Virus record (IMG/VR): IMGVR_UViG_3300007541_000002 | Span: 1-42,598 of that record | DNA length: 42,598 bases | Strand: one strand, 5' to 3' | From: a virus | In this document: one piece after another, positions 3,037-42,598 of the stretch | Layout: each line of letters begins with the position of its first letter | Numbering within the stretch: the first letter of the stretch is position 1 | Position numbers and translations under genes: made by a program | The notes under the pieces: generated by a model | Told to the model about the DNA's origin: nothing | Seen by the model: the letters and a program-made list of their open reading frames with translations, nothing else | Databases searched by the model: none

Positions 3037-3488
3037 TTTCGTACCCTCGGAATCAAGACGTTGATGACCGCAGACCGCACCCGGTCCACCAGTCTCTCGT
3101 GCCGGCCGCGCGACTCGCCCCACTTGCTCTTCGGGCACGTGCTCTTCGGCATCGTCAACTTGACGGTAAGTCTGGCTCGAGGGTTCATCCCGCACCCACA
3201 CGCCTTGCAGAACCCGATCTCGTCCTTGTCGGTCGCGTAGAGTTCGGGACAGGCCCTGCACTGCTTCGCCCTCTCGTCGAAGACTTCCTTAGGCACTGGT
3301 CCCTCGAGGTGTAGGCTCATCTCGGCGGTGACGTACGACTTGATCCGAGACATGTCAGCCTTCGTCGGCGAGGGAGGTTCGTTCTGAACAACTTCCCCGG
3401 GCTTCGGCGGTGCGGGGTTGCTCGAGTGCACGTATCCGTTGGTGAAGTAGCCTTGGCTATTCGGCATGGGTTGTTGCTTGTTGTTCAT
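3033..3488 (-). CDS. Zinc-ribbon protein
   Basis: A 151-residue protein. The N-terminal third is Pro/Asn-rich and probably disordered. Residues about 75-125 hold a cysteine array (C-x2-C-P at CRACP, C-x2-C-x-C at CKACGCG, and a further CP before KSKWG) preceded and followed by conserved-looking basic residues, typical of a structural zinc ribbon seen in uncharacterised phage proteins. It overlaps the Cys-rich gene upstream by four bases (ATGA) and the 62-residue gene downstream (GTGA), so the cluster is one transcript. Nucleic-acid or protein binding is possible; function unknown. Confidence 0.65.
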   Translation of the reverse strand: MNNKQQPMPNSQGYFTNGYVHSSNPAPPKPGEVVQNEPPSPTKADMSRIKSYVTAEMSLHLEGPVPKEVFDERAKQCRACPELYATDKDEIGFCKACGCGMNPRARLTVKLTMPKSTCPKSKWGESRGRHERLVDRVRSAVINVLIPRVRK

Positions 3489-5401: not shown

Positions 5402-5453
5402 GAGGTCCTCCTTCAAGCCCACTACGGAAGGCGTGTTGAGTGTTCTAAGGATT

Positions 5454-5539
5454 GGGGAGAGGCCGGTAGGGTGCTCCGGCCCCTCCCCGAGAGGCGAAAG
5501 GGCTCCGAAAGCCTCTCACTTCCGGGGGTGGAAGCCCCC
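5454..5539. promoter_or_regulatory. Three consecutive hairpins in divergent intergenic region
   Basis: The 183-base gap between the leftward Cys-rich gene and the rightward gpF-like gene contains three inverted repeats: a 13-bp stem with one mismatch (5454-5466 with 5476-5488), a 7-bp stem (5489-5495 with 5511-5517) and a 5-bp G/C stem (5524-5528 with 5535-5539). Read leftward, they form a structured 5' leader for the Cys-rich gene. No convincing sigma70 promoter was found for either direction, although TATAAG occurs at 5575-5580. Confidence 0.55.
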
Positions 5540-5551
5540 TAATTACGGACG
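5518..5551 (-). promoter_or_regulatory. 34-nt leader element, copy 1
   Basis: Read on the minus strand, this stretch starts CGTCCGTAATTAGG and matches positions 20831-20864 on the plus strand at 29 of 34 bases. Both copies contain a small hairpin right after the shared 14 bases and both lie 110-150 nt upstream of a gene on the same strand (here the Cys-rich gene at 5401). This suggests a shared regulatory signal such as a phage-specific promoter or a leader RNA element. Confidence 0.5.
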
Positions 5552-13016: not shown

Positions 13017-13020
13017 GACG

Positions 13021-13115
13021 AGCCACGGGAAGGCCCCTCCGGGGCCGCTCGCTTCTTCGGCCGGCTTCTGGTCCTCCCGGGCCGAAGAACGCCTCGGAGG
13101 GTCCTTCCCGTGGCT
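13021..13115 (+). promoter_or_regulatory. Long nested stem-loop covering the next gene's start
   Basis: A 21-bp inverted repeat with one mismatch (13021-13041 with 13095-13115) encloses a second perfect 10-bp stem (13053-13062 with 13080-13089). The right arm of the outer stem contains both GGAGG (13096-13100) and the GTG start (13110) of the gpG-like gene. The left arm can instead form a short local hairpin GGCCCC-TCC-GGGGCC (13032-13046). These are mutually exclusive structures, so the region could regulate translation of the downstream gene or act as a terminator. Confidence 0.7.
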
Positions 13116-20830: not shown

Positions 20831-20864
20831 CGTCCGTAATTAGGTGGTTCCCACCCGGGGAAGT
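20831..20864 (+). promoter_or_regulatory. 34-nt leader element, copy 2
   Basis: Begins three bases after the tail hub stop and matches the minus strand of 5518-5551 at 29 of 34 positions (shared CGTCCGTAATTAGG). It contains a small hairpin GGTGG-TTC-CCACC. It stands 78 bases upstream of the ATG at 20942, on the same strand, as does the other copy relative to its gene, so a promoter or leader role is plausible. Confidence 0.5.
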
Positions 20865-22838: not shown

Positions 22839-23340
22839 CTTCAACCAGTTGCACGATTTGATGAAACCGGTGCTTACGTCGGTGGCTCGCCGAATCGCTA
22901 GCCAATGCGTGGACGACGCGGTCCAGTGTGCTCTCATCAAGATATGGAGGAACATAGGCTACGTAGATCTAGGTAGGGAGGTCACGGTGAAGGCGTTGGT
23001 CATGAAGATCGGCGTCAGGGCCATGCGTGATGAGGTGCGAAGGGCGGTGGCCAAGTCAAAGGAAGCCAACGCTTCCGACGTTGCCTTGATATCCGTGGAC
23101 GCCGACTCCAAGCCGCTCCAGTTCGAGGGCCGACTGTTGAGCGAATACGTGAAGTACTACGAGGAGAACGGCACCTTCACCGGCGTACATTCGTTCGTGT
23201 CTAAGGTGTTGGGGGTGTCCGCGACCTCCTTACAGGCAGAGGCAAGGCGAGAGGCCCGTAGGCAAGCAGAAGCCCAAGGCTACGTCATTAGGAGTATGGA
23301 TGACATCTTCGATTCCATTATTCGCAGTCGATACGAGTGA
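22777..23340 (+). CDS. Sigma-70-like transcription factor A
   Basis: A 187-residue protein. Residues 20-75 resemble sigma region 2: FNQLHDLMKPVLTSVARR, then CVDDAVQCALIKIWRNI, and a later RAMRDEVRRAVAKSKE helix. The C-terminal region (SKVLGVSATSLQAEARREARR) looks like a helix-turn-helix of region 4. It may be a phage ECF-type sigma factor that redirects host RNA polymerase, for example to late genes. ATG 22777 overlaps the nuclease gene and its stop overlaps the polymerase start; a good AGGAG for the polymerase is inside this gene. It is plausible but not proven. Confidence 0.6.
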   Translation: MSTEGTGGEWSSAVREAQDGNFNQLHDLMKPVLTSVARRIASQCVDDAVQCALIKIWRNIGYVDLGREVTVKALVMKIGVRAMRDEVRRAVAKSKEANASDVALISVDADSKPLQFEGRLLSEYVKYYEENGTFTGVHSFVSKVLGVSATSLQAEARREARRQAEAQGYVIRSMDDIFDSIIRSRYE

Positions 23341-25468
23341 CCCGGGTGAGTACAGGTCGGTAATACCACAACAGTTTGATCTAGCCAGTGTGGGGGACCC
23401 CGTCGCCGGCGTGGTCGTAGCACTCGGCAAGAAGGCGGCAGAGAAGATCCTAGGCCGTTCCGTCAACATGAGGAAGGACGTCGGCGAGAGGTTCGAGGTC
23501 GACGGCGCGGTCGTGGTCGTTCAACACCACCCGATCAAGGTGTTGGAGGCGGCGAAGGAGAAGGGTGGAGCGGCCGAGAGGGTGGTCGAGTCGTGGGTCG
23601 ACGTGTGGGAGTACGCCATCGAACTGGCGAAGGGGGAGGAGCAGGAAATACCCGACGTGGTGTACCTGTTGGAGACTGATTCGATCATCTCGGTACTCGA
23701 GGAGGTCGCGTCCAACAAGTACCACGTGGCGTACGACTACGAGACGTGGGGAGACGTCACCGCCCTGCGTCCCGAGTTGAACTCCGACTTCAAGATCCTC
23801 AGCGTCGGCTTCGCGTTCGACGATCCCGAGTGTGGTCCGGTGTGCTTCTCCTTTCCAGTGGATCACCCGGCCGCGCGGGTGGATACCCCTAAGGTGTTGT
23901 CCGCGTGGAGGAGTGTGCTCGAGTCCTGCACCACCGTAGCGCACCACTCGAAGTACGAGCACAAGGTCAACCTCAGGGTGTACGGAAAGAGTTGGCCATC
24001 CCGGGACACCATGTTGGCCAGTTACGTCTTGGAAGAGGCTGCTAGCCACTCCTTATCCTCGTGCATGAAGAGGTTCGGGATCAGGTGGGGGCATAAGAAC
24101 GACGGCATCGGTGAGAACCCGGTGGAGGCGAAGGTCACCGATCTGCTCCGGTACAACGGTCTCGACGCGTTGGCTACTCTCGAACTGGAGACGTCGATGT
24201 CCAGGGACATGGATGAGGAGCAGTCATCTGTGTGGGAGATGGAGTGTGAGTTCGCTCTCGGATTGGCCAAACTCGAGAACACCGGGATAGCGTTCGACCC
24301 CGAGAGGTTGATCACCGTGAGAGCCGACTTGGTGGAGGACGTGGAGGAGGCTCGCCGGCGAGTCTACGACAGCGCCGAGGTCAAGTCGGTGGTCGATCAC
24401 TTCGGAAGGGACTTCAATCCGAAGAGCAACCCGATGATGCACCACCTCGTGTTCAAGGTGCTGAAGGAGAAGGTGAGGGGTCGCACCGCTTCCGGCTCCC
24501 CCAGTCTCGACAAGAGGGTACTGGAGAAACTCGAGGAGAAGCACCCAGTCCTCCGAGATCTGGCGGCGTGGAGGTCGAAGAGTGCCATGGTCACCGGTTT
24601 CGTTGACAAATGGTCGAAGTACGTGTCTCCCACGGGAACGATGCACGGGCAGTTCAGTCAGGCCGTCACGATGACCGGGAGGTTGTCGAGTACTGAGCCC
24701 AACTTTCAGAACATACCCAAGAACTCCGTGGTGAAGTCGGTCTTCGTGAGCCGGTTCGGTGGATGGTTGGTCGCGGCCGACTACGCGCAGCAGGAGCCTC
24801 GACTGGTCGCCGGAATCTCGGGTGATCAGAAGATGATCAGCGCCCTAAATGATGGTCTCGACCTTCATCGATTCGCTGCCGGCGAGATCTTCGGCGTCGG
24901 CTTCGACGAAGTCACCGACGTGCAGCGCGATGTAGGCAAGCGAATGAACCTCGGGATCATCTATGGGCAGACCGAATACGGGCTTGCTCAGAAGACTGGC
25001 ATGTCGTTGCCTGACGCTCGCTCACTGTTGAAGAGGTACGACGTCGCCTTCCCGGGAGTCGCGCGGTGGAAGCAGGAGCAGATCGCCTTCGCCATCAGGC
25101 ATGGCTACGTGAGGGACCTGTTCGGTTCTCGCCGGCACTTGCCCGACGTGTGGAGTTCGGACGATGCTACCCGGATGAGGGCGTACCGACAGGCCGGCAA
25201 TAGCCCGATCCAGTCGACCGCCGCAAAGTTGACGATGCTATCGCTCTGCATGCTTCAGGAGAGGCTGTTCCTGCGCGGGTGCGTGATGATGCAGGTCCAC
25301 GACAGTATCGTCATCGACGTCTCCGACCGGCACCTCGATCTCGGCATCGAGATCCTGCGAGAGTGCATGTTGGTGCACAACGAGATGCCGTACTGGAAAC
25401 CTCTCGGCGTCCCGTTCAAGGTGGACGTGAAGGCCGGAACTAACCTACTGGAGATGCATGATGTCTAA
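23300..25468 (+). CDS. dpoZ: DNA polymerase, family A (DpoZ-type candidate), with 3'-5' exonuclease
   Basis: A 722-residue family A DNA polymerase starting at ATG 23300 with AGGAG at ideal spacing. Residues 1-105 resemble only the C-terminal half of a uracil-DNA-glycosylase-type domain (VALGKKAAEKILG, VVVVQHHPIKVL). The 3'-5' exonuclease follows: motif I D146-Y-E148, motif III YNGLDA. Motif II reads HHSKYEH, with Glu where Asp is usual. Polymerase motifs: A (ADYAQQE, D494), B (K547 in GKRMNLGIIYG, with Leu at the usual Phe position) and C (VHDS, D668, with Ser where Glu is usual). Such changes fit a specialised polymerase that selects aminoadenine, given PurZ three genes away. The name dpoZ is inferred from context. 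Confidence 0.9.
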   Translation: MTSSIPLFAVDTSDPGEYRSVIPQQFDLASVGDPVAGVVVALGKKAAEKILGRSVNMRKDVGERFEVDGAVVVVQHHPIKVLEAAKEKGGAAERVVESWVDVWEYAIELAKGEEQEIPDVVYLLETDSIISVLEEVASNKYHVAYDYETWGDVTALRPELNSDFKILSVGFAFDDPECGPVCFSFPVDHPAARVDTPKVLSAWRSVLESCTTVAHHSKYEHKVNLRVYGKSWPSRDTMLASYVLEEAASHSLSSCMKRFGIRWGHKNDGIGENPVEAKVTDLLRYNGLDALATLELETSMSRDMDEEQSSVWEMECEFALGLAKLENTGIAFDPERLITVRADLVEDVEEARRRVYDSAEVKSVVDHFGRDFNPKSNPMMHHLVFKVLKEKVRGRTASGSPSLDKRVLEKLEEKHPVLRDLAAWRSKSAMVTGFVDKWSKYVSPTGTMHGQFSQAVTMTGRLSSTEPNFQNIPKNSVVKSVFVSRFGGWLVAADYAQQEPRLVAGISGDQKMISALNDGLDLHRFAAGEIFGVGFDEVTDVQRDVGKRMNLGIIYGQTEYGLAQKTGMSLPDARSLLKRYDVAFPGVARWKQEQIAFAIRHGYVRDLFGSRRHLPDVWSSDDATRMRAYRQAGNSPIQSTAAKLTMLSLCMLQERLFLRGCVMMQVHDSIVIDVSDRHLDLGIEILRECMLVHNEMPYWKPLGVPFKVDVKAGTNLLEMHDV

Positions 25469-25709
25469 GAAAGCAGCGGTCTCTCAATCCAACGACTCCA
25501 GTGTCGGCGCGAGAAGGGTGTACGTCGCCATCGCTAGGACCGTCTCTCTTCCCGGGTACGAATCCGTCCGGGTCGAGTACGGCGAGGGAGACCTCGTTGC
25601 CGAGGGGCAATCACACGACGACGTGAGAGATGTGTTGGTGGAGCGTGTCCACGGCACCGTGACCGAACTGGTTTCAGCCTTGAAGGAGCAGTTGACCAAT
25701 GATCGATAA
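25458..25709 (+). CDS. Small polymerase-associated hypothetical protein
   Basis: An 83-residue acidic protein between the polymerase and the single-strand-binding protein, overlapping both (ATG 25458; ATG 25461 is equally possible). A segment YESVRVEYGEGDLVAEGQS reads as a beta hairpin followed by a helix, a small fold repeatedly seen in phage replication operons. No family assigned. Its conserved position suggests a replication accessory factor. Confidence 0.6.
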   Translation: MMSKKAAVSQSNDSSVGARRVYVAIARTVSLPGYESVRVEYGEGDLVAEGQSHDDVRDVLVERVHGTVTELVSALKEQLTNDR

Positions 25710-26466
25710 GGACCTTCTCCGCCGGCAGTTGAAGGAGGCGCAGGAGCGCCGCAGCGCCGGCAACATCGCGTACGTGAAGGGTGACGTCTCCCTCCGCGTG
25801 ATCCCGTTCAAGGATGGCGACTCGATGAACTTCGCCCGGAAGTTCGTCCAGTGGCGTCCGCGTGGCGAGGGCCGGCCCGTCGCTCACCGTGGCAACTGGG
25901 ACAAGCCCGACCTGTTCGAGTCCGTGAAGCGAGAGACTCCGGATTTCCCGTGGAGGGAGACCAGTGCGTACCTCGTCAATGCGATCGACGTCTCCGGCAA
26001 CGAGCGCGAACTCCGCGTGTGGCAGTTGCCGGTCAGCGTGTACGAGGCGATCGCCGAGATCCTGCTCGATGACGATTACGACCATGCTCTCGACCCCAAG
26101 TCCGGCGTCCCGTTCAAGATCAAGCGGACCGGAACCGGACTCGCTACCAAGTATTCCGTGATGGTCGGGCAGAAGGCCGTCGACGTCTCGAAGTTCGTCT
26201 CGGCTGCTCGCGACCCCATGGACGCGGTCAGTGACCCGGGGCTCGAGACTCAGGCGAGCGCTCTCGGCGTGGATCTCGGTGACTTCGACATCGAAGCGGA
26301 CGAGCCGGCCCCGGTTGCCGAGAAGAAGAGCAAGAAGCCGGCTCCGGTCGCCGAAGACGACGATGAGGACGAGGACGAGGACGAACTGTTCCCGGCGCCG
26401 GCGAAGAAGTCGTCGACCGGCAAGGCTCCCTCGATCCGTGACCTGCTGAAGGGGGGCAAGAAGTGA
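25699..26466 (+). CDS. Single-stranded DNA-binding protein
   Basis: A 255-residue protein of gp32-like type: a mixed beta domain (residues 1-165) with FARKFVQWRPRGEGRPVAHR, WQLPVSVYEAI and a late VPFKIKRTGTGL that could be the OB-type binding face, followed by an acidic tail with DDDEDEDEDELF and a basic end (DLLKGGKK). Acidic C-termini of single-strand-binding proteins recruit polymerase, helicase and nucleases. It overlaps purZ by four bases. Placement among replication genes is decisive; the family match is by composition. Confidence 0.75.
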   Translation: MIDKDLLRRQLKEAQERRSAGNIAYVKGDVSLRVIPFKDGDSMNFARKFVQWRPRGEGRPVAHRGNWDKPDLFESVKRETPDFPWRETSAYLVNAIDVSGNERELRVWQLPVSVYEAIAEILLDDDYDHALDPKSGVPFKIKRTGTGLATKYSVMVGQKAVDVSKFVSAARDPMDAVSDPGLETQASALGVDLGDFDIEADEPAPVAEKKSKKPAPVAEDDDEDEDEDELFPAPAKKSSTGKAPSIRDLLKGGKK

Positions 26467-27476
26467 TCGACCAAGGAGCGATTTGCGTGATCGACTCACA
26501 GTGGGGTTCCTGTGGGAAGGGCAAGGTCGAGGGCGCGATCTACCAACGCTACCCCGGCATTCAGGTCGGCGTGTCCGACAACATGCCGAACGCCGGACAC
26601 ACCGTCTATTCCGAGGACGGCGAGAAGCACGTACTCAAGAGTCTGCCAGTGGCTTGCGCGTTGGGCAGGACTGGCGTACTCGGCCCCCACTCCGCGTTCT
26701 ACCCTTCGGCCATGGGGCTCGAGTGGGAGAAGATCTCGAAGTACGGTTCTCTCCTTTACATCGACAAACTCGCCTCACTGGTGCAGACTGCCGACAACAT
26801 GAAGGAGTTCAGCCTCGTCACTTCGATCGCTTCAACTGGTCAGGGCGGCGGTAGTTCGTCGATCCGGAAGATGGAGAGGCTTGGGCTCGGTACGTTGGCC
26901 GCGAGTCTCGAACTCGAGGCCAAGAACATCTTCGTGATGCGGACCAACGTCTACTGTCAGATGATCGCGTCCCGGGCTCCGATCCTCCTCGAGGGATCTC
27001 AGGGATTCGACCTCTCACTCAATCACGGGCACTCGTACCCCCACGTCACCAGTCGCGACGTCACCCCCAACCGGATGCTCGATAACGCCGGTCTCAGCCC
27101 CTTCGACTGCAAGGAAGTCATCGGGGTGGTGCGCACTTTCCCGATTCGCGTGGGTAACTATGGCGAGTTCTCGAGCGGACCCTGCTACGAGGATCAGCGG
27201 GAGATGTCGTGGTCTGAGGTCTCCGTCATCGCCGGCAAGACGGTGAGTGAGCGCACGACTGTCACCAACCGGTTGCGCCGCGTGTTCTCCTTCTCCGACA
27301 TGCAGTTCACCAAGTTCGTTCGGACGTGCCGGCCGACCCGGTTGTTCGTCACGTTTGGCGACTACCTTCCGGATAAGGAACTGGGCCAGTTCATCGACCG
27401 CGTCGAGGCAATCGCCGACGCCAAGGTGATGGCAGTGTCTCACGGACCCAAGAACGAGGATACCGAATGGCTCTGA
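26463..27476 (+). CDS. purZ: PurZ, 2-amino-adenylosuccinate synthase (Z-genome enzyme)
   Basis: A 337-residue PurA-family enzyme with a GTG start overlapping the previous TGA. The N-terminal motif is Q-W-G-S-C-G-K-G-K (residues 13-21): Ser16 stands where PurA has the catalytic Asp of GDEGKG. Other family motifs are intact: NAGHT (43-47), EGSQGFDLSLNHGHSYP and VTSRDVTPNR. This substitution is the known PurZ signature. PurZ converts dGMP plus L-aspartate to 2-amino-succino-dAMP (dSMP), which host PurB cleaves to dZMP. Its place beside the polymerase and dNTP enzymes supports a Z genome. It could still be a diverged PurA, but the Ser argues strongly against that. Confidence 0.93.
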   Translation: MIDQGAICVIDSQWGSCGKGKVEGAIYQRYPGIQVGVSDNMPNAGHTVYSEDGEKHVLKSLPVACALGRTGVLGPHSAFYPSAMGLEWEKISKYGSLLYIDKLASLVQTADNMKEFSLVTSIASTGQGGGSSSIRKMERLGLGTLAASLELEAKNIFVMRTNVYCQMIASRAPILLEGSQGFDLSLNHGHSYPHVTSRDVTPNRMLDNAGLSPFDCKEVIGVVRTFPIRVGNYGEFSSGPCYEDQREMSWSEVSVIAGKTVSERTTVTNRLRRVFSFSDMQFTKFVRTCRPTRLFVTFGDYLPDKELGQFIDRVEAIADAKVMAVSHGPKNEDTEWL

Positions 27477-27943
27477 TCGCTTGCGTCATCGGAACCACTG
27501 GTTCCGGAAAGTCGTTCACCGTCGAGAGCGGGTTCCCTCACCCCTTGTGGATCAAGGGTACCCCGGGCAAGATGATCAGGTCTTCCGTTGGAATGTACCA
27601 TGCCACGGAGGAAACGAATCCCAACCGGTTTGACCTGACCGAAGACCTTGTCAGGGACTACGTCTACCGGTTGGTGCAGGTGGCCGACAAGGTCCGAAGG
27701 CCGGTCGTGTTGGATGGTTTCCCCCGCGACAAGCAACAGGCGGACTGGTTCTTCTCCATGTTTGCCGAGCACGAGATCATGGTGTTCGTGATCAAGCCGG
27801 CGAGAGAGGTCAAGTTCGTGCACGACACGGATGAACACAGGCGGCACGAATGTAGCATCAGGGACGTTGCCGACGTGATGTACACCGCCGTGGATAGAAG
27901 GATCTTGGTCAAGGAGTTCACTACGCCATGGACAGATTACTGA
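27467..27943 (+). CDS. Nucleoside monophosphate kinase, adenylate-kinase-like
   Basis: A 158-residue kinase with a P-loop GTTGSGKS (residues 9-16) and an adenylate-kinase-like NMP-binding and lid region: LDGFPRDKQQADWF near residues 82-95. Compared with the family it is short and its N-terminal NMP-binding loop (HPLWIKGTPGKMIRSSVG) is unusual. The frame overlaps purZ by ten bases and dUTPase by 16, so the three are co-translated. I infer it acts on dZMP or another purine deoxynucleotide in the PurZ route, replacing host kinase; this is unproven. Confidence 0.75.
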   Translation: MALIACVIGTTGSGKSFTVESGFPHPLWIKGTPGKMIRSSVGMYHATEETNPNRFDLTEDLVRDYVYRLVQVADKVRRPVVLDGFPRDKQQADWFFSMFAEHEIMVFVIKPAREVKFVHDTDEHRRHECSIRDVADVMYTAVDRRILVKEFTTPWTDY

Positions 27944-28377
27944 TCAAGGTCGAACCGGTGGTGATGCTGTCGGTGCCGACTTCGCCGGCTCGCCCGGGTG
28001 ACGCCGGACTGGACCTGATGAACGCCGGACCTTCGGTGTCGATCCAAGTCGGCGAGACCGTGCAGATCCCGTGTGGCATCCGGGTGAAGATTCCCGAGGG
28101 TCACTTCGGCATGATCACCGGGCGGTCCAGTACCTTCTCGAAGAAGGGCATACTAGTCCCCACTTCGGTGATTGACGAGGGATACGTAGGTCCGCTCTAC
28201 GTGGTCGCTCACAACCCCGGGGTGAGGACTCTTGGTTCCACCCGTGACGTGAGGGTGGAACTGGGTGAGAGGATCGCCCAACTGGTGGTGATCCCTTACG
28301 CCCGGATCGATCCCCTCATCGTCGACGAACTGCCTGATACTGAGCGAGGTTCAAATGGATTTGGTTCGACGGGCTGA
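27928..28377 (+). CDS. dut: dUTP diphosphatase
   Basis: A 149-residue dUTPase with the five family motifs visible: PGDAGLDL near residue 20 (motif 1), GRSSTFSKKGILV (motif 2), VIDEGYVGPLYV (motif 3, with Asp as catalytic base), a variant motif 4 (GERIAQLVV) and RGSNGFGSTG at the C-terminus (motif 5, flexible arm with Phe stacking on uracil). It hydrolyses dUTP to dUMP, keeping uracil out of DNA. Its coupling to purZ and kinase points to control of the dNTP pool. The GSTG end is complete. Confidence 0.93.
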   Translation: MDRLLIKVEPVVMLSVPTSPARPGDAGLDLMNAGPSVSIQVGETVQIPCGIRVKIPEGHFGMITGRSSTFSKKGILVPTSVIDEGYVGPLYVVAHNPGVRTLGSTRDVRVELGERIAQLVVIPYARIDPLIVDELPDTERGSNGFGSTG

Positions 28378-29593
28378 CTGTCCTCCCTCTCTCGAGCCCA
28401 TCATCGTCGCCGCTCTCGCCACCGACCCGGATCTGCTAGCACAAGTCCGGGTCGTGGTGTCTTCGGCCATGTTCTCCGATCCGGTCAATGCGACCATCGC
28501 CGAATCCTTGCTCCGGTTGTTCGACAAGTATGGGTCCGTCCCCAGTCTTGCGGTCTTGTCTGAGTCGGTGTCGGAGTCCGGGAGCAGGGACTCGTACGAG
28601 GCATCCGAGAGGGTGATGGGGTTGTCCCCGGTCAAGGATGTCGCTTATGTCAGGGACCGCATCGTCGGATTCTCCCAGTGGAAGCAGATAGATGAGGCGT
28701 TCGCCGACGCCGACTCGATCTCCCCCGCCGAACTGGCCGAGAAGATCTTGGGCGCCAGTCGGATCGGCGCGACTCTGAGCGACTCCTACCTTACCCTCGA
28801 GGGTGACGTCGGGGCGGATGATCTTCGCCGGCCGGTTGTCCCCACCCCTTGGCCTTACGTCAACGACTTGCTCCGGGGAGGACCCGAGAAGGGAGACCTA
28901 TGCGCCATCCTGTCGTTCATCAACGTCGGCAAGACCACGCTACTGGTGAACGTCGCCGCTGCAGCGATGGCCGTGGGTAAGAGCGTCGTGTACTTCACCT
29001 TCGAGGACGGCGAGAGGAAGATCCGCCGGCGGTTCCTGCAGTGCATCACCGGAATGACCGTCGAGCAGTTGATCAAGGACCCGGTAAAGGCCGCGAAGAA
29101 CCGGGATAGGTTCGTGTCCAAGACGGGCTCCGCTCTCGCGATCAAGAGTCTACTGGTGCGGCAGTCGACTGTGCGGGACGCTTGGGACTTCGTGAAGTCC
29201 TACGAGTCGAACACTGGCAGGAAGGTCGATCTCGTTATCACTGACTACGCCGACCGTTTCCGGGCCTCCACCGCCAACCGGGAGCCTAGGCACGAGTGGA
29301 GATCGATCGCCGAAGATTGCAAGGCCATGGCCATGGATCTCGACGTAGTCCACTGGACCGCCAGTCAGGTGCAGCGCAGTCGCGCCGGCGAGGAAGTGGT
29401 GGACCTCGAGCACGTCGCCGAAAGCATGGGCAAGGTCGAGGGAGCCGACTTAGTCCTAGGGGTGGGGCAGAAGAAGGACGAGGTCAGGACGGGGCGTTTG
29501 GTGATGACCACGGCCAAGGTGAGGGACGCCGAGAAGGGGTCTCAGATCTCACTGGTGGCAGACTTCGAGGTTCAGAGAGTTGCGGAGCAGTGA
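28355..29593 (+). CDS. Replicative DNA helicase, DnaB-like
   Basis: A 412-residue RecA-fold helicase. Residues 1-150 resemble the DnaB N-terminal domain; the ATPase domain has Walker A SFINVGKTTLL (residues about 186-196, with Ser where the family's first Gly is), a strand VVYFTFEDGE, and Walker B LVITDYADRF. An S-x-Q-x-x-R segment (ASQVQRSR) near residue 335 is the arginine-finger-like region. It unwinds the replication fork and works with the adjacent primase. It starts at ATG 28355 inside the dUTPase gene (23-base overlap). Confidence 0.88.
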   Translation: MDLVRRADCPPSLEPIIVAALATDPDLLAQVRVVVSSAMFSDPVNATIAESLLRLFDKYGSVPSLAVLSESVSESGSRDSYEASERVMGLSPVKDVAYVRDRIVGFSQWKQIDEAFADADSISPAELAEKILGASRIGATLSDSYLTLEGDVGADDLRRPVVPTPWPYVNDLLRGGPEKGDLCAILSFINVGKTTLLVNVAAAAMAVGKSVVYFTFEDGERKIRRRFLQCITGMTVEQLIKDPVKAAKNRDRFVSKTGSALAIKSLLVRQSTVRDAWDFVKSYESNTGRKVDLVITDYADRFRASTANREPRHEWRSIAEDCKAMAMDLDVVHWTASQVQRSRAGEEVVDLEHVAESMGKVEGADLVLGVGQKKDEVRTGRLVMTTAKVRDAEKGSQISLVADFEVQRVAEQ

Positions 29594-30446
29594 CGTACTC
29601 GACTCCCTCTTCTCCCAGTCTCCCCTGATACGGGGGGACCAGATGGTCTTCACGTGTCCGGGTTGTGACAAGCCCGAGCACCTCTACGTCCACCGGTCCA
29701 AGGCCCTGTACATCTGCTTTCGCTGTGGTCTTCGCGGCGGTCTGCTGAAGGATCTGGTGGGGAGGAAGTCGGAGTGGCGTAGGTTGTGCCGGCTGAGTGA
29801 GGCCCGGGAAGGCCCCTCCGAGGCCGAGGTCGACTTGGGTGGCTGCTTGTACCCCCTGACCGGAGAGGCGCCTCCGAGAGGCACTCCCGTGGCCGGAGCG
29901 ACCCGCTACTGCCTACGCCGGGGCCTGAACCAGTCTCAGATCAGTCGGTACATGGTTTCGGCAAAGCCCTTCGATGGTCGCGTATGGTTCCCGTACTGGA
30001 GCAGGGGGCGCCTAACGTGGGCTATCGGAAGGTCGATGGGTGCGGTGGAGCCGAAGACCCTGGACATGGGCTCGGATAAGCCCTTGTTCGGTCTGCACGT
30101 GTACCGACCAGTCGGTGACGTGTTCTTGGTCGAGGGGGTATTTGACCACTTCGCCACACCCGGAAGTCTCGCCCTGTGTGGGTCGACCATCAGCCACACC
30201 CAACTGGCAGAGTTGGTATCTCTCGAGTTATCCCGGGTGTTCGTACTCTTGGACCCGGACGCCGAGGAGAAGGCGCTGCAGGTCGCCGAATCCTGCAGGT
30301 CGGCCGGCTTGAAGGCTTACCCGGTGCTCCTGCGTGGAAATGACAAGGACCCGGCCGACTTGGGCCGAGTCCTCGTCACGGAACTGGTCAAGGTGGTACG
30401 GGAGGGAGCCCCCGTCAGACCACAAGCAGTCCGTTTGCACGTCTGA
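29580..30446 (+). CDS. DNA primase, DnaG-like (zinc finger plus TOPRIM)
   Basis: A 288-residue primase beginning at TTG 29580, overlapping the helicase by 14 bases. The zinc finger is C26-x2-C29 and C46-x2-C49. The TOPRIM domain is visible as VFLVEGVFDHF (Glu) and VFVLLDPDAEEKA (D-x-D), which bind magnesium. A C-terminal helicase-interaction domain is not apparent, so it is a small primase. It converges with the leftward early cluster; its last 32 bases overlap the end of the sigma-like gene on the other strand. Confidence 0.85.
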   Translation: MRSSDVLDSLFSQSPLIRGDQMVFTCPGCDKPEHLYVHRSKALYICFRCGLRGGLLKDLVGRKSEWRRLCRLSEAREGPSEAEVDLGGCLYPLTGEAPPRGTPVAGATRYCLRRGLNQSQISRYMVSAKPFDGRVWFPYWSRGRLTWAIGRSMGAVEPKTLDMGSDKPLFGLHVYRPVGDVFLVEGVFDHFATPGSLALCGSTISHTQLAELVSLELSRVFVLLDPDAEEKALQVAESCRSAGLKAYPVLLRGNDKDPADLGRVLVTELVKVVREGAPVRPQAVRLHV

Positions 30447-31005
30447 CGGCCAACGCCACCCGGGACGTGCTCAGGTTGAGGGCGCGAGCCACGTGTGCTT
30501 GCGTGACGCGGGGAGCCCCGTTCACGTTCATACGGAGAGCCCCCGTCGACCTTGAGTCGTTCCGGGCCTCCGACTGTTCAGCGAACGCGATCGATATGGT
30601 CGCCTCCGAGGGTGTGGCGATCTCGATGAGGATGGCGAGGTCGACTGGTCCGATACCCGGGCAGAAGTCCTTGATCATGTTCACCACGTCGATGTCGCCG
30701 ACCGATCGGTCCGGTAGGGAGATAGGCACCGCACCCCGTGGCGCCTTGTTCTCCCGGCGAACGACGTCGATCATTCGGCTCCGCACGAAGGTGATCACGT
30801 GCGAAGGGTCGACCGGCACCACCTTCTTGAGCGCGTGGGAGAAGGTGGGCTGTCTCACCCAGTCGTTCTCGACCACCCGGATCAGGATATCGTGGTAGAG
30901 GTCCTCGGGGGAGTGAATCCGGGTCTTGAGTCGGTTCGCCCAGTACCAGATCACCTCCCCAAACCAACGCTCGGCATCGTGGAATGAGATCTTCAGCCCA
31001 TCCAT
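30415..31005 (-). CDS. Sigma-70-like transcription factor B, leftward cluster
   Basis: A 196-residue protein read leftward from ATG 31005. Residues 1-80 resemble sigma region 2 (SFHDAERWFGEVIWYWANRL, then SPEDLYHDILIRVVEND, and FVRSRMIDVVRRENK as the promoter-opening/DNA-binding part), and the C-terminus has a helix-turn-helix of region 4 (VTQAHVARALNLSTSRVALAVRRAN). Likely an early ECF-type sigma factor or anti-host regulator. The upstream region up to 31152 is open in frame but reads as Arg-rich non-protein, so ATG 31005 with overlap to the preceding zinc protein is preferred. Confidence 0.65.
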   Translation of the reverse strand: MDGLKISFHDAERWFGEVIWYWANRLKTRIHSPEDLYHDILIRVVENDWVRQPTFSHALKKVVPVDPSHVITFVRSRMIDVVRRENKAPRGAVPISLPDRSVGDIDVVNMIKDFCPGIGPVDLAILIEIATPSEATISIAFAEQSEARNDSRSTGALRMNVNGAPRVTQAHVARALNLSTSRVALAVRRANGLLVV

Positions 31006-31253
31006 CCCGACCCTCCCCCGTTCAAGTAATCGGTGTAAGACTCGTCGTCCATGCTCTCCCCAGTTCCCGACCAGTAGCGGTCTTCTGCGTCGAGTTCGTC
31101 GTCCGCGTCGCTCTCCTTCTCGGGCTCGCACGGCTCGCAATCGTTCGGGCAATCAGACTCCGCGCAGGTCCATCGGTCAATGAAGTAGCGCACGGTGCCC
31201 GTACCCCCACAGTGGGGGCAGACGTCTTCGTGTTCGGTGGTCTCGTTGTCCAT
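30993..31253 (-). CDS. Small zinc-finger protein, acidic
   Basis: An 86-residue leftward protein starting at ATG 31253 with AAGGAGG at ideal spacing. Residues 12-15 are C-P-H-C and a second cluster (C-x4-C-x3-C-x2-C) follows near residue 30, followed by a very acidic tail (ESDADDELDAEDRYW). This looks like a small zinc-ribbon plus acidic region, typical of phage host-takeover or transcription regulators. It overlaps the sigma-like gene by 13 bases, so translation may be coupled. Function unknown. Confidence 0.65.
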   Translation of the reverse strand: MDNETTEHEDVCPHCGGTGTVRYFIDRWTCAESDCPNDCEPCEPEKESDADDELDAEDRYWSGTGESMDDESYTDYLNGGGSGWMG

Positions 31254-31263
31254 GTGGTCCTCC

Positions 31264-31707
31264 TTATCCGCAGTAGACGGATGATGTGCAGTGAACGTTA
31301 GAAGCGAGGTCGCCGACACCGGCGAGGCACACCCACCGCTTGTGGTCGTTCATGATGGCGGCCATCTCTCTGAGGTCCCCGTCCGGGCTGAACGAGCCGT
31401 GACCGGAGAACGTCACGCTCACGTGCGTCTCAGCGCGGACGTCGAACGAGCAGACGTTCCGGACGTCGATCTGGTCCCGGATCCCGGAAGCAACTCGGGA
31501 GATCTCAACGACGTCGTCGAGAATCGCAGTACGCCGGCGGTTGAGGGCGTCCTGCAGGTCGTGCAACCCGGCGGCGAGCAGCGCATCGGATACCCGCACC
31601 CACTCCTCGGTGGTGATCGGGATGGGCAGGCTCCCGGCCGGCCGCATGTGGCGATGACGCGAGCGGTTGACGGACGAGTCCTGAGAACGGAACAGGTTGT
31701 TGGTCAT
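31264..31707 (-). CDS. Hypothetical early protein
   Basis: A 147-residue leftward protein starting at ATG 31707, which overlaps the next upstream gene by four bases (ATGA). The N-terminal 40 residues are Arg/Ser-rich and probably disordered; a helical region follows (EEWVRVSDALLAAGLHDLQDALNRRRTA) and then beta strands. The apparently long plus-strand frame here (31291-31929) is a shadow. No family recognised; early leftward genes often modify the host. Confidence 0.6.
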   Translation of the reverse strand: MTNNLFRSQDSSVNRSRHRHMRPAGSLPIPITTEEWVRVSDALLAAGLHDLQDALNRRRTAILDDVVEISRVASGIRDQIDVRNVCSFDVRAETHVSVTFSGHGSFSPDGDLREMAAIMNDHKRWVCLAGVGDLASNVHCTSSVYCG

Positions 31708-31943
31708 CGGGTGGCTCCCTTCAGGATCTTGTCGCCACGGGCGGCGAGGGTGGGGTTGCACATCTCCGCAAGGTCTTCGTCGTTCACCGGAGTGTCGCAA
31801 GCCCCGGTGCGGACCCGGAGCGACTCCACGAGCAGGTCGAGCAGCGCGAACTTCGAGAGCCGGCTGAGTGCGGCGACGTCCGGCCCGGAGTTGATCGGGG
31901 CCTTCTTGTTGCGGCCGACCCAAACGTAGTTCTTATCACTCAT
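31704..31943 (-). CDS. Small hypothetical early protein
   Basis: A 79-residue leftward protein starting at ATG 31943 with AAGGAG about eight bases upstream. It has a short beta segment (NYVWVGRNKKAP) and then helical, charged sequence (RLSKFALLDLLVESLRV). No family recognised. It overlaps the next gene by four bases, indicating co-translation in the early operon. Confidence 0.6.
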   Translation of the reverse strand: MSDKNYVWVGRNKKAPINSGPDVAALSRLSKFALLDLLVESLRVRTGACDTPVNDEDLAEMCNPTLAARGDKILKGATR

Positions 31944-31967
31944 GGTCGTATCTCCTTGGTTGGGGGA

Positions 31968-32555
31968 TTAGGCGTTGTTGACGTCGGTGACAGCGCGCTG
32001 CATGAGCAACTCGACGCGGTCGTAGCCGATCTTCCGGATCATCTCGCGGCACTGGCCGGCGAAGCGCTGCATCATCTTCTCCTCGGTCTCGGTGCTGACC
32101 TTCTTCGCCTTCTTCGCCTTCGGAGTCTTCTTGGCCGGCATGCCCTCGGCATCCTCGGCCGTGTACTTCACCGGCTCGTTGGGCTTGCGGGTGATCTTGA
32201 CGGTCTCGATCTCCTCGGCCTTGTCAGCGTCGGTGGCCGCGATCGCGTTGTCCCGCAGGTCCATCACGATCTTGAGGTCGTGGGCGAGGGAGTCGGCGAG
32301 CGGATTGTTGCTCTTGCTCCGTGCGTTGGCGATCCGTCCGTTGAGGTGAGTGATGGCGGCGTCGAGTTGGTCCGCAGTCAGGTGCAGTTCGGCGGTCGCG
32401 TGACGGGGTCCGGTCCACGTCACCGTGCACACCACGCCGGCGAGGATCGCGTCGAACCGGCCACTGGTGGAGCAGGAGAGGATCCGGGTCGGGTGGAGCG
32501 CGTCGACCAGTGCGTACCCGTACTTCTTGTGAGCGGCCACGTTGCGGGTGTACAT
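31968..32555 (-). CDS. First gene of leftward early operon, DNA-associated hypothetical
   Basis: A 195-residue protein (from ATG 32555) with a beta-rich N-terminus, helices, a Lys/Ala-rich stretch (AKKTPKAKKAKKVS) and a helical C-terminus. Its natural start appears to be ATG 32600, which has a GAAAGG Shine-Dalgarno, but codon 4 in that frame is TAG (32589-32591), after which the frame stays open and reads SQITLLVNGTK into ATG 32555. ATG 32555 itself lacks a Shine-Dalgarno. So translation from 32555, readthrough of the amber, or an inactive gene are the options. TAG is used as a true stop elsewhere (7896, 33298). Function unknown. Confidence 0.6.
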   Translation of the reverse strand: MYTRNVAAHKKYGYALVDALHPTRILSCSTSGRFDAILAGVVCTVTWTGPRHATAELHLTADQLDAAITHLNGRIANARSKSNNPLADSLAHDLKIVMDLRDNAIAATDADKAEEIETVKITRKPNEPVKYTAEDAEGMPAKKTPKAKKAKKVSTETEEKMMQRFAGQCREMIRKIGYDRVELLMQRAVTDVNNA

Positions 32556-32667
32556 CTTGGTGCCGTTGACGAGGAGCGTGATCTGAGACTAGTTGTTCAT
32601 TGCGAGCCTTTCGTAGTGACCCAGTGGGTCGGTGTCTTGTCGCATCGCCGGAGTTGGCGATGTGTGA

Positions 32668-32696
32668 ATTAGAACACACGCTTGAACCTCTGTCAA
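32668..32696 (-). promoter_or_regulatory. Strong sigma70-type promoter for the leftward early operon
   Basis: On the minus strand: TTGACA (32691-32696) is a perfect -35 box, followed after exactly 17 bases by TCTAAT (32668-32673), close to the TATAAT -10 box. Initiation would be near 32660, about 60 bases before ATG 32600. This is the best promoter seen in the window and would be recognised by host RNA polymerase early after infection. Confidence 0.85.
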
Positions 32697-32701
32697 GTAC
32701 A

Positions 32702-35029: not shown

Positions 35030-35683
35030 ATGCTTAAGAGAATCATCGAACAGTACGTTGCTCCTCTCGCAGCCGCTGCCGCCGGAGGAGCCGGAGGAGC
35101 CGGGGGTGCTGCCGGGGGTGCCGCCGGTGCCGCCGGTGCCTCCGGTGCCTCAACCGCCGGCGAGGGGAAGGCTGTCGCGGACATGGCTAAGTCCGGGGGT
35201 GGTGGCTCGATCCCCAATCCGGGCGACGTGATCGGAGGGGGAATCAGGTCGGCGGGTAGGGCAGCAGCCGCCCCCTTCAACATTCTTTCGGCCATTCCTC
35301 AGTCAGCCGGCGCCTCGTACCGTGCGGACACCGGCGAGAAGTACTCAGGTCACAACTCCGGCAGGGAACGGGCTCGGTCGATCATGAGCATGCTCAGCGA
35401 CGCGGCAAACATGTCGAGGAACGCCGCCGTGGAGCAGCGCGGTGATCCCGACTTCAAGGACTTCCACCCGGGAGACGTCGCCATGGCTAAGATGGCCGAA
35501 GACCACTACGAGGAGTGGGGTCACACCCTCAGCCCGGAGGACGATGCTCGAGCGCGGAAGATGATCGAGGGCCTCCACAACACGTACGGGGGTCTTCACA
35601 ACTTCGACGGTCGGGGCCGGCGCGTCGAACACTACACGTCGGTGGGTCATCGGTACCGGGCTCTTCTCGATCGACTGAAGTAA
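35030..35683 (+). CDS. Gly/Ala-rich protein of unknown function
   Basis: A 217-residue protein starting three bases after the terminase. Residues 10-45 are a low-complexity run of Ala and Gly, resembling a flexible collagen-like or elastic spacer. The rest is charged with His/Asp-rich helices (HPGDVAMAKMAEDHYEEWGH). Composition is similar to the His/Asp-rich proteins nearby. It could be a virion-interior protein; no family recognised. Confidence 0.6.
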   Translation: MLKRIIEQYVAPLAAAAAGGAGGAGGAAGGAAGAAGASGASTAGEGKAVADMAKSGGGGSIPNPGDVIGGGIRSAGRAAAAPFNILSAIPQSAGASYRADTGEKYSGHNSGRERARSIMSMLSDAANMSRNAAVEQRGDPDFKDFHPGDVAMAKMAEDHYEEWGHTLSPEDDARARKMIEGLHNTYGGLHNFDGRGRRVEHYTSVGHRYRALLDRLK

Positions 35684-35685
35684 AC

Positions 35686-38361
35686 GTGAATAGGAAGACT
35701 CACCTGCACCCGGGTTGGACCCACGAGCAAGAAAGCGACCTCCGTCGCTTGCATGGTGACGTGTTCGAAGAGCCAGGTATAGCCGATTTCAATGCTTACT
35801 ACCACCCCGGCTCCGATACCGTCTACCTTGACATGATCAAGGTGAAGAGTAACTACAGGAAGGGTGGCATCGGCAGTTCGATCATGGACGCGTTGACCCA
35901 GTTCGCAGACAAGCACGGGAAGGGTCTGACGCTTCAAACCGCTAATAGGGCCTCGGGTTTAGGCACCACTTCTACGGGCCGGCTGAAGAAGTTCTACAAG
36001 AGGTTCGGCTTTCAGGAGAACAGCAACCCGAAGGATTACCGACCCGAGTTGCCGGGAAACATGAATCGACCCCCGGTCGAACGACATTCCCTCGGTGGAT
36101 TCCGTCACGAAGAGGACGAACACGGTGGTCATAGGATCACCTCGGACCACGGGACCATCGAATACGTCCCTAGCGGTGACACCAACCAAGTATGGTGGGT
36201 GGAGAGCCGGCGCCGAGGTCACGCCGGCGAACTCATGGCAGAAATGCTAAAGGCGCACCCGGCCGAATACGTCGAGTGGGGAGCCACGAGTGGGCAGGGA
36301 CAGGCGTTCAGAGAGTCATGGCACCGCAAGAACCCCGACGTCAAGGACGCCACTGGTGGAGAGCGCGTTCCCTTCGACGGCCAGTTTGATCCCTATGAAC
36401 ACGGGCGTGGCGACATGGACGACGAGTTCTACCTGATCATCGACGAGATCGAACGGTTCAACCTATACCGGTCGGCTTCCATCAGGAACCCGAGGACCGG
36501 ACAGATGTTCGAGGGTTCATGGCACGGCGCTGCTTACGACGCGGCCGTGGAAGCCGGTCACGACCCGGGGGTCCTCAGTTTCTGGGACGACGGGTTCACT
36601 ACTCACGACGGGAAGTTCCACACTCGGGAACAGGCGACTAAGGAGGCGCAGAAGCGTGTTCCGAGTGACGAGGGGGCAGAATCGGTGGACCTGATGACCA
36701 AGGGTCTCCTCACGACCGACCCCGGCCTGACGAAGAACGATCGGGTGAACTCCGACCTGCGCAAGAAGTTGTCCGACCACCTTGAGCAGCACTTCTACGA
36801 CTGCTTTGGCGAACTGGACCGATACGCTTACAGGTCGGCGGCTATCTACCACAAGAATACCGGGGTCGTGTTTGAGGGACCGATGCACTTGATGGCGCAC
36901 GACGCTGCCGCTCGAGCCGGACACCCTGACGCTCACAACCCGCACATGTGGGACGATGGGTTTGTCACTGACAAGGGACATTTCGAAGAACGGGAGGGGC
37001 GAGAGTCGGTTAACCTCATGTCAAAGGGGGAACTGCCACTTGCACCGAAGGGTGCAGAAGATCGGCCCGACATTCTCCCCGAGAAGGCTGCTCAACTGAG
37101 GGCGATTCATCTCAAGCGCGAATCGACCGACCGGCACTTCTACGACCACCTTGACGAACTTGACCGACACGCCGATTTGTTCCGGTCTGCTGCCATCAAG
37201 GACCCCAAGACTGGGGCCATCTTCGAGGGAACGTGGCACGGGGACGCCCGAGACAAGGCCATCGCCGCCGGCATTCCGGACGAACACACGTGGGAGTGGG
37301 AGGACGGTTTCGTCGATCACGAGGGTAACTACTACGACCGGGAGCAAGCCGCTGTACATACTCGCGCGGTCGCAGGTATTCCGACTCCCGCAGAGTCGAT
37401 CACGATGATGACTCAGGGACTCCTTCCCGTCGACCAGTCCTTGGCTGACAACCCCACCGTTGCCTATCCTTACCGGAAGAAGTTGGACGATTTCCTTCAC
37501 AACAAGAAGGTCAGGGCTTCATGGTTTGACCCTCCATCCACTGAGACCAAGGCAAGGCGGGAGGCCAATCTCGGAGAAGAGCCTGATCTCTCGAAGGTCG
37601 ATCAACACTTCTACGACCGCCTTGGTGAGGTCGACCGGTACGAGTTGTTCCGTTCTGCGGCCATTAAGCACCGGTGGTCCGGTGATATGTTCGAAGGAAC
37701 GTGGCACGAAGCCGCTCGTCAAGCCGCCCATGAAGCCGGGTACAACAACCCTTGGGACGGTTCATCCGACTGGATCGACGGATTCGTGACTCACGACGGC
37801 GCCTTCTTGGACCGTGATGCCGCTGCGGAGTTCTCCTTCGATCCCGAGACCCGGAAGCCCGGTGGACGCGAGTCGGTCGACCTCATGATCAAGGGCCACC
37901 TTCCCGTCGACGAAGACCTCGTGAATGACGAAGACCTTCGACCTAGCCTTCGCCGTGACCTCGAGGATCACCTCAGGTCGACCGGCCGTATTTCGGAGGA
38001 TACCCCTCTGATCAACAGGACCCCGAAGTGGTTGGACCGCCACGACTTGTACCGATCTGCCGCCATCAAGCACCCTAAGACGGGCGAAGTCTTCGAGGGA
38101 GCCATTCACGTGCTCGCTAGAGATAACGCCTTGGACGCGATGGGATCTAAGGCCCTCCACGTCCCTTGGGTGGACGGATTCGTCACTAACGAAGGTGAGT
38201 TTCACACGCGAAGACAGGCGGCAGGTAGGACTAAGAACAAGGCGGAGAGCGTCGCCCTTCACGTCTCAGGGCATTTAAATAACGATGAACTGAACAACTT
38301 GATCGAACAAGATCCGCAGATACTTGAAGATCACGGGTTTGGCCCGAGTGACGAGGACTAA
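35686..38361 (+). CDS. Giant polyvalent-type protein: two GNAT domains and five tandem modules
   Basis: An 891-residue protein starting at GTG 35686, three bases after the previous stop. The first GNAT acetyltransferase domain (residues about 25-115) has the acetyl-CoA loop R58-K-G-G-I-G63 and a C-terminal KFYKRFGF. A second GNAT-like unit near residues 145-205 has RRRGHAG. Then five copies of a 115-155 residue module begin at residues 262, 383, 500, 656 and 790, each 'RSAAI...TG-x-x-FEG-x-x-H...DGFVT...G-x-F-x-x-R...ESV-x-L-M-x-KG-x-L'. Such short modules recur in polyvalent proteins, which phages carry in the capsid and inject. It may acetylate host proteins while the modules bind or block host factors. 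It is the largest gene here. Confidence 0.8.
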   Translation: MNRKTHLHPGWTHEQESDLRRLHGDVFEEPGIADFNAYYHPGSDTVYLDMIKVKSNYRKGGIGSSIMDALTQFADKHGKGLTLQTANRASGLGTTSTGRLKKFYKRFGFQENSNPKDYRPELPGNMNRPPVERHSLGGFRHEEDEHGGHRITSDHGTIEYVPSGDTNQVWWVESRRRGHAGELMAEMLKAHPAEYVEWGATSGQGQAFRESWHRKNPDVKDATGGERVPFDGQFDPYEHGRGDMDDEFYLIIDEIERFNLYRSASIRNPRTGQMFEGSWHGAAYDAAVEAGHDPGVLSFWDDGFTTHDGKFHTREQATKEAQKRVPSDEGAESVDLMTKGLLTTDPGLTKNDRVNSDLRKKLSDHLEQHFYDCFGELDRYAYRSAAIYHKNTGVVFEGPMHLMAHDAAARAGHPDAHNPHMWDDGFVTDKGHFEEREGRESVNLMSKGELPLAPKGAEDRPDILPEKAAQLRAIHLKRESTDRHFYDHLDELDRHADLFRSAAIKDPKTGAIFEGTWHGDARDKAIAAGIPDEHTWEWEDGFVDHEGNYYDREQAAVHTRAVAGIPTPAESITMMTQGLLPVDQSLADNPTVAYPYRKKLDDFLHNKKVRASWFDPPSTETKARREANLGEEPDLSKVDQHFYDRLGEVDRYELFRSAAIKHRWSGDMFEGTWHEAARQAAHEAGYNNPWDGSSDWIDGFVTHDGAFLDRDAAAEFSFDPETRKPGGRESVDLMIKGHLPVDEDLVNDEDLRPSLRRDLEDHLRSTGRISEDTPLINRTPKWLDRHDLYRSAAIKHPKTGEVFEGAIHVLARDNALDAMGSKALHVPWVDGFVTNEGEFHTRRQAAGRTKNKAESVALHVSGHLNNDELNNLIEQDPQILEDHGFGPSDED

Positions 38362-42382: not shown

Positions 42383-42598
42383 ATGCCCCGGGTCATCACT
42401 GTACTTCCGACGCCCGGTGTTCAGATGAACGCGGCACCGGGAGCGACTGTGGACTTCGGTCCCAAGGCTGTATCCGTACTCGCGTCGTTCCTACCAGTCC
42501 GGTCGAACTACGCAGTCTCGGTAACCAAGCACCTATATCTGACTCCGTCCGTAGTCGCAATCACCAGTTCGGTACTTTCGGTCGAGGTGCCGAAGGTA
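42383..42598 (+). CDS. 5' part of the seam-spanning beta-rich tail protein
   Basis: The gene begins at ATG 42383, four bases after the preceding stop. It reads MPRVITVLPTPGVQMNA and onward through the seam into the frame at position 1. The final part (42476-42598) duplicates 1-123. It is truncated here only because the molecule was cut at this point; together the two parts encode 296 residues. Confidence 0.75.
   Translation, partial: MPRVITVLPTPGVQMNAAPGATVDFGPKAVSVLASFLPVRSNYAVSVTKHLYLTPSVVAITSSVLSVEVPKV
42476..42598. repeat. Right copy of 123-bp terminal direct repeat
   Basis: Identical to bases 1-123 in the same orientation. Removing one copy gives a 42,475-bp unit with an uninterrupted gene across the join. 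Confidence 0.97.

Follow-up and report, generated by a model that had tools for sequence, protein, structure and literature searches.

A probable Z-genome phage with a purZ–kinase–dutZ cassette and a proposed dZMP kinase

The closest described systems for the replacement of adenine by 2-aminoadenine (Z) are the cassettes of two groups of phages. The Z-cluster of phiVC8, SH-Ab 15497 and S-2L consists of purZ, mazZ and datZ and is accompanied by DpoZ or PrimPol. The PurZ0 phages Wayne and Ghobes carry purZ0, dutZ, dmtZ, DUF5664 and DpoZ-1 (PMC12884076). DutZ is reported from all PurZ0 phages, and PurZ phages mostly have DatZ and MazZ-type enzymes; both dATP and dGTP are hydrolysed by the DutZ of Ghobes and Wayne (PMC12884076). 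DpoZ is characterized by Phe at the steric gate (F459 in phiVC8; PMC8599892), and S-2L reaches full substitution with an unspecific PrimPol and a dATPase (PMC8065100, PMC8342488). On the phage genomes examined, no enzymes acting downstream of PurZ were identified (PMC8342488), and published pathways for Z-phages assign the conversion of dZMP to dZTP to enzymes of the host (PMC8342488, PMC12884076).

The stretch of DNA analysed here (the window) is the whole of record IMGVR_UViG_3300007541_000002 (42,598 nt, positions 1–42,598) of an uncultured phage. A direct terminal repeat of 123 nt on the plus strand, with identical copies at 1–123 and 42476–42598, marks the record as a complete phage genome, or nearly so, and absences in it are therefore meaningful. 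As in the Z-cluster, a compact cassette lies beside replication genes. The operon, in which the genes touch or overlap, runs on the plus strand in the order PolA, a small ORF, a single-strand DNA-binding protein-like gene (25699–26466; phrog_1192, 1.2e-14; 4 nt overlap with purZ), purZ, a kinase gene, a dUTPase gene, a DnaB-like replicative helicase gene (28355–29593) and a DNA primase gene (29580–30446; phrog_47). The coupling of purZ to an NMP kinase and a dUTPase that had been read from the sequence in the preliminary description is borne out, as both genes are present; the kinase gene overlaps purZ by 10 nt, and the dUTPase gene overlaps the kinase gene by 16 nt. Neither tRNA genes nor Rfam families were present when the window was scanned for them. 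Elsewhere in the window, the interval between primase and terminase (30467–32700; ORFs searched on both strands) gave no family match, a Cys-rich ORF of 645 aa lies on the minus strand (3485–5422) amid plus-strand genes, and a long ORF between terminase and portal (35515–38361) contains about five copies of a repeat unit (RSAAIkhpkTGevFEGtwH...). A 34 nt inverted repeat pair (5518–5551 and 20831–20864; 85%) is spaced by 15 kb, and a GC-rich direct repeat of 28 nt (13020–13047 and 29799–29826; 89%) was also observed.

The purZ frame (26463–27476, plus strand), assigned to 2-amino-adenylosuccinate (dSMP) synthase, begins with GTG, encodes 337 aa and stops at 27476. The product reads ...DSQWGSCGKGK...NMPNAGHT...LLEGSQGFDL...NHGHSYPHVTSRD. 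Its Ser16, in the motif GSCGKGK, aligns on the catalytic Asp13 of Escherichia coli PurA, which confirms the proposed exchange of Asp for Ser. The rest of the active site is intact at the positions checked, again as described: NAGHT, EGSQG and NHGHSYP are present, and N38, H41, T129, R143, Q224, T239 and R305 are kept. PurZ was the first-ranked match in profile searches and in the comparison with solved structures alike. The product matches PHROG 1211 (E = 1e-57), and the nearest solved structures are 6fko and 6tnh (the sequence of the phiVC8 enzyme; E = 1e-42), with 7odx (annotated as PurZ; E = 9e-34) as a further relative. The match to the NCBIfam PurZ model NF038379 (E = 1.6e-56) scores 192 bits and lies below the model cut-off of 300 bits.

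The Ser residue had been regarded as the known signature of PurZ from Z-genome phages. This could not be upheld, as all of the cellular homologues in the alignment (28/28) carry Ser too, and Ser-type homologues occur on many bacterial and archaeal chromosomes. Because Ser is common to this large cellular family and is not diagnostic alone, the PurZ assignment is carried by the tree. The PurA/PurZ phylogeny suggested earlier as a check was calculated from 116 sequences as a quick tree with SH-aLRT support only. The window protein is located inside the phage PurZ clade together with experimentally proven PurZ (support 100), and a grouping with bacterial PurA was not found; PurA forms its own clade (100), and the window PurZ stands apart from PurA and from PurZ0. 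The window shares this clade, as well as the Asp-to-Ser exchange, with phiVC8, SH-Ab 15497 and S-2L but differs in the long stem (1.28 changes per column) that bears its group of four rows. Within the clade it belongs to a subclade of 24 rows (96), and the remaining 23 rows (23/23) have an adjoining kinase.

The cellular Ser-type homologues of Terriglobus, Nostoc and Thalassolituus resemble the phage enzyme in having Ser at the Asp13 position and a P-loop kinase that is adjoining or fused. They differ in being chromosomal, in occupying separate branches of the tree and in having RNase-H-fold or DUF7002 partners. On the Nostoc and Thalassolituus chromosomes (L136:2882–7140 and L126:2947–6843), a Ser-type PurZ-like gene is accompanied by a fusion of RNase_H_2 with an AAA_18 P-loop kinase and by a dCTP-deaminase-like (DCD) gene. 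With a DCD/dUTPase-fold neighbour, as in the phage, this gene set is the same functional triad (kinase, PurZ and dUTPase/DCD fold); it is possibly a defence or modified-nucleotide system. In Terriglobus and Edaphocola (L141:4410–6646 and L157:4395–6664), a P-loop kinase is fused to a Ser-type PurZ-like domain and followed by a DUF7002 gene, and similar fusions of kinase and Ser-type PurZ-like domains occur in several other bacteria and one archaeon.

The dutZ gene (27928–28377, plus strand) encodes a DutZ-type trimeric dUTPase-fold protein, a proposed dATP/dGTP diphosphatase. Its best phage matches are mostly dUTPases of PurZ0 Arthrobacter phages. In the dUTPase tree, the window enzyme and 14 kinase-linked relatives lie beside the DutZ of Ghobes, Wayne, Parvaparticeps and Keanu (99/92). 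With three more PurZ-linked sequences, all Z-linked enzymes (22/22) fall on one side of a branch and the 21 others on the opposite side (100/97), and the characterized DutZ of Ghobes and Wayne group with the window dUTPase, leaving every sampled non-Z dUTPase outside. As the adjoining dUTPase belongs to the DutZ clade, Z metabolism is indicated independently of PurZ, and the two placements together support the earlier suggestion that this is probably a Z-genome phage. The dUTPase-fold enzyme is thus common to the window and to Wayne and Ghobes, whereas the window has PurZ rather than PurZ0, an additional kinase and a polymerase that is not DpoZ-1; phmmer searches of the window with the NDT domain and gp51 of Wayne found no relative. 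Since DutZ was placed with PurZ0, and DatZ and MazZ-type enzymes mostly with PurZ (PMC12884076), DutZ in a PurZ genome is a new combination, the enzyme being known so far from PurZ0 phages. In the window's subclade, dutZ directly follows the kinase gene in 14 of 25 loci; it is not universal in the lineage, because the dUTPases of the large relatives L013, L015 and L017 fall outside the DutZ clade.

In place of the DatZ and MazZ of the Z-cluster, the window thus has DutZ and the kinase. DatZ was not detected in the window, and the positive controls (phiVC8, S-2L and SH-Ab) were found. A Pfam MazG search missed the positive controls; a local MazZ profile was used instead, and MazZ or DUF550 was not detected in the window. 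Searches of the window for an all-alpha dUTPase and for PurB found neither.

The kinase gene (27467–27943, plus strand) encodes an adenylate-kinase-fold (d)NMP kinase of 158 aa, for which we propose dZMP as the substrate. It is found directly after purZ in all 25 IMG/VR loci of the window's PurZ subclade; the contigs measure 5–263 kb, and their neighbouring genes are unrelated. A second PurZ clade shows the same arrangement at 10/11 loci, and at 8/11 an all-alpha dUTPase (PF08761 type) is fused or close to the kinase. Among classic purZ–mazZ–datZ loci, the kinase is found in 0/23, DatZ in 21/23 and MazZ in 18/23. As the kinase profile behind these counts had been trained on purZ neighbours, a scan that starts from the kinase is a fairer test of the pairing: a kinase pattern not seeded with purZ, run on 2.9 million viral contigs, gave 14 loci, and purZ adjoins in each (14/14). 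No relative of the window kinase was found by tblastn against 50,697 phage records; the kinase profile likewise found none when applied to 13 PurZ/PurZ0 loci from phages that are cultured or deposited in GenBank (best E 0.03). Gene 50 of Bacillus phage BpsS-140 was considered as a kinase candidate and rejected for want of a P-loop. At one locus (L072:11110–12663), purZ is directly followed by a 517 aa fusion in which the kinase and an all-alpha dUTPase_2 domain are joined by a third domain, deoxyribosyltransferase-like by eye alone. The C-terminal part of this fusion found no relative in the PDB and its model is poor, so a DmtZ-like reading of the third domain is an impression only. Nothing relevant on PurZ paired with a nucleotide or guanylate kinase was found in the open literature; an earlier mention is possible in subscription papers, including the first PurZ reports. 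The openly accessible published Z-phage pathways do not include such a kinase, and in the window's lineage PurZ is almost always accompanied by it.

The AlphaFold model of the kinase (pLDDT 90) has adenylate kinases as its top PDB fold matches, and the sequence gives weak Adk profile matches. In common with AK1, AK5 and bacterial Adk, it has the fold, the P-loop, the DGFPR motif and the Gln responsible for reading the N1/N6 edge of adenine; it differs in its identity of about 18%, its short length, the loss of Adk Thr31 and the missing LID arginines. Adk residues K13, G32, D84, P87, R88 and the adenine-reading Q92 are kept in 25/25 kinases and T31 is lost in 24/25; the LID arginines R119 and R123 are present in 22/25 and are not aligned in the window copy and in two near relatives (L004 and L006). 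The Gln of Adk reads the 6-amino purine edge, and dZMP has the same edge. The loss of Thr31 would make room for the 2-amino group, and the enzyme is probably a dedicated dZMP kinase. Alternatively, the genome could be a Z genome in which a general (d)NMP kinase recycles dAMP and dGMP or boosts all dNDPs, like other phage NMP kinases. The adenylate-kinase fold and the weak Adk matches are consistent with this, dAMP and dGMP released by DutZ could be recycled, and because the adenine-reading Gln is retained the enzyme could be a dAMP kinase working against dATP destruction. We consider this unlikely, given the near-exclusive pairing with purZ in two PurZ clades and in phages of unrelated gene content, and never with the classic cassette, the loss of Thr31, and the fact that recycling of dAMP would undo the action of DutZ.

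With a dZMP kinase, the proposed pathway would run as follows. PurZ would condense dGMP and aspartate to dSMP, from which host PurB would release dZMP; the adjoining kinase would convert dZMP to dZDP and host Ndk would convert dZDP to dZTP. DutZ would destroy dATP, keeping A out, and would hydrolyse dGTP, supplying dGMP to PurZ; since it would act on both nucleotides, DutZ alone could stand in for DatZ and MazZ. In larger relatives PurB is itself encoded by the phage: a PurB-like adenylosuccinate lyase is present in four large relatives with the purZ–kinase pair (L271, L272, L273 and L274; 126–263 kb), with TIGR00928 as the best match of each and a score over the cut-off in 2/4. In these phages every step from dGMP to dZDP would therefore be phage-owned. 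The records of Ghobes and Keanu also annotate adenylosuccinate lyase.

PolA, a family A DNA polymerase with a 3'–5' exonuclease motif (23300–25468, plus strand), lies close to purZ, as had been pointed out in support of a Z genome. The proximity stands, but it is weak as evidence because PolA falls outside both DpoZ clades and retains the Tyr gate. PolA forms its own clade (100/100), apart from DpoZ-1 and DpoZ-2 and, in this, from the Z-cluster polymerases; the steric-gate residue is Tyr, where both DpoZ groups have Phe, and Leu is found at the position of E. coli F762, as in phiVC8 DpoZ. Z nucleotides might accordingly be made and the DNA be only partly substituted, with a polymerase that is not DpoZ and an incomplete removal of dATP. 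Against such partial substitution, which we regard as quite unlikely, stand the complete substitution of S-2L by an unspecific PrimPol with a dATPase, the presence of DutZ in the window, and AU tests in which a sister relation of PolA to either DpoZ was not rejected (p = 0.07 and 0.27). In the preferred pathway, PolA would place Z at A positions mainly through the scarcity of dATP, as proposed for S-2L, and not as a DpoZ.

In PurA, D333 (E. coli numbering) reads guanine; PurZ of phiVC8 and S-2L uses ATP. The window PurZ and three near relatives have Asp at this position, which is Asn in 20/20 other members of the subclade and Asn or Gln in PurZ of phiVC8, S-2L, SH-Ab and ZP6. Asn or Gln here is a common and not a required feature of PurZ, and bears on the use of GTP or ATP rather than on dSMP synthesis. 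Because Asp occupies the guanine-reading position, the window PurZ is predicted to use GTP, and may do so instead of ATP. An ordinary PurA-type auxiliary metabolic gene supporting adenine synthesis in the infected cell, to which this Asp and the PurA fold would also conform, is highly improbable in view of the exchange of the catalytic Asp for Ser16, the position in the phage PurZ clade away from PurA, and the DutZ partner.

The interpretation that we favour, as moderately probable, is a Z-genome phage with a purZ–kinase–dutZ cassette unlike the published ones, its own dZMP kinase and exclusion of A through dATP destruction. It builds on features established at the sequence level, namely the family and active site of PurZ, the DutZ clade, the kinase fold, the conserved purZ–kinase pairing and the lack of detectable DatZ and MazZ; from these we infer the substrate of the kinase, the specificity of the window DutZ and the presence of Z in the virion. 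The retained Gln and the lacking LID arginines of the window kinase, the absence of a Phe gate, the NCBIfam score below cut-off and the dUTPases outside the DutZ clade in some large relatives speak against it. That purZ–kinase–dutZ constitutes a third type of Z-DNA cassette, with a dedicated phage dZMP kinase, PurB too in the largest relatives and perhaps a GTP-using PurZ, we hold to be an evenly balanced proposition.

A conserved phage kinase next to PurZ would explain how the gap between dZMP and dZTP is closed in one large lineage of uncultured Z-phages. The kinase would also offer an enzyme for dZTP production in synthetic ZTGC systems. The occurrence of DutZ in a PurZ genome alters the published split in which DutZ is assigned to PurZ0 phages.
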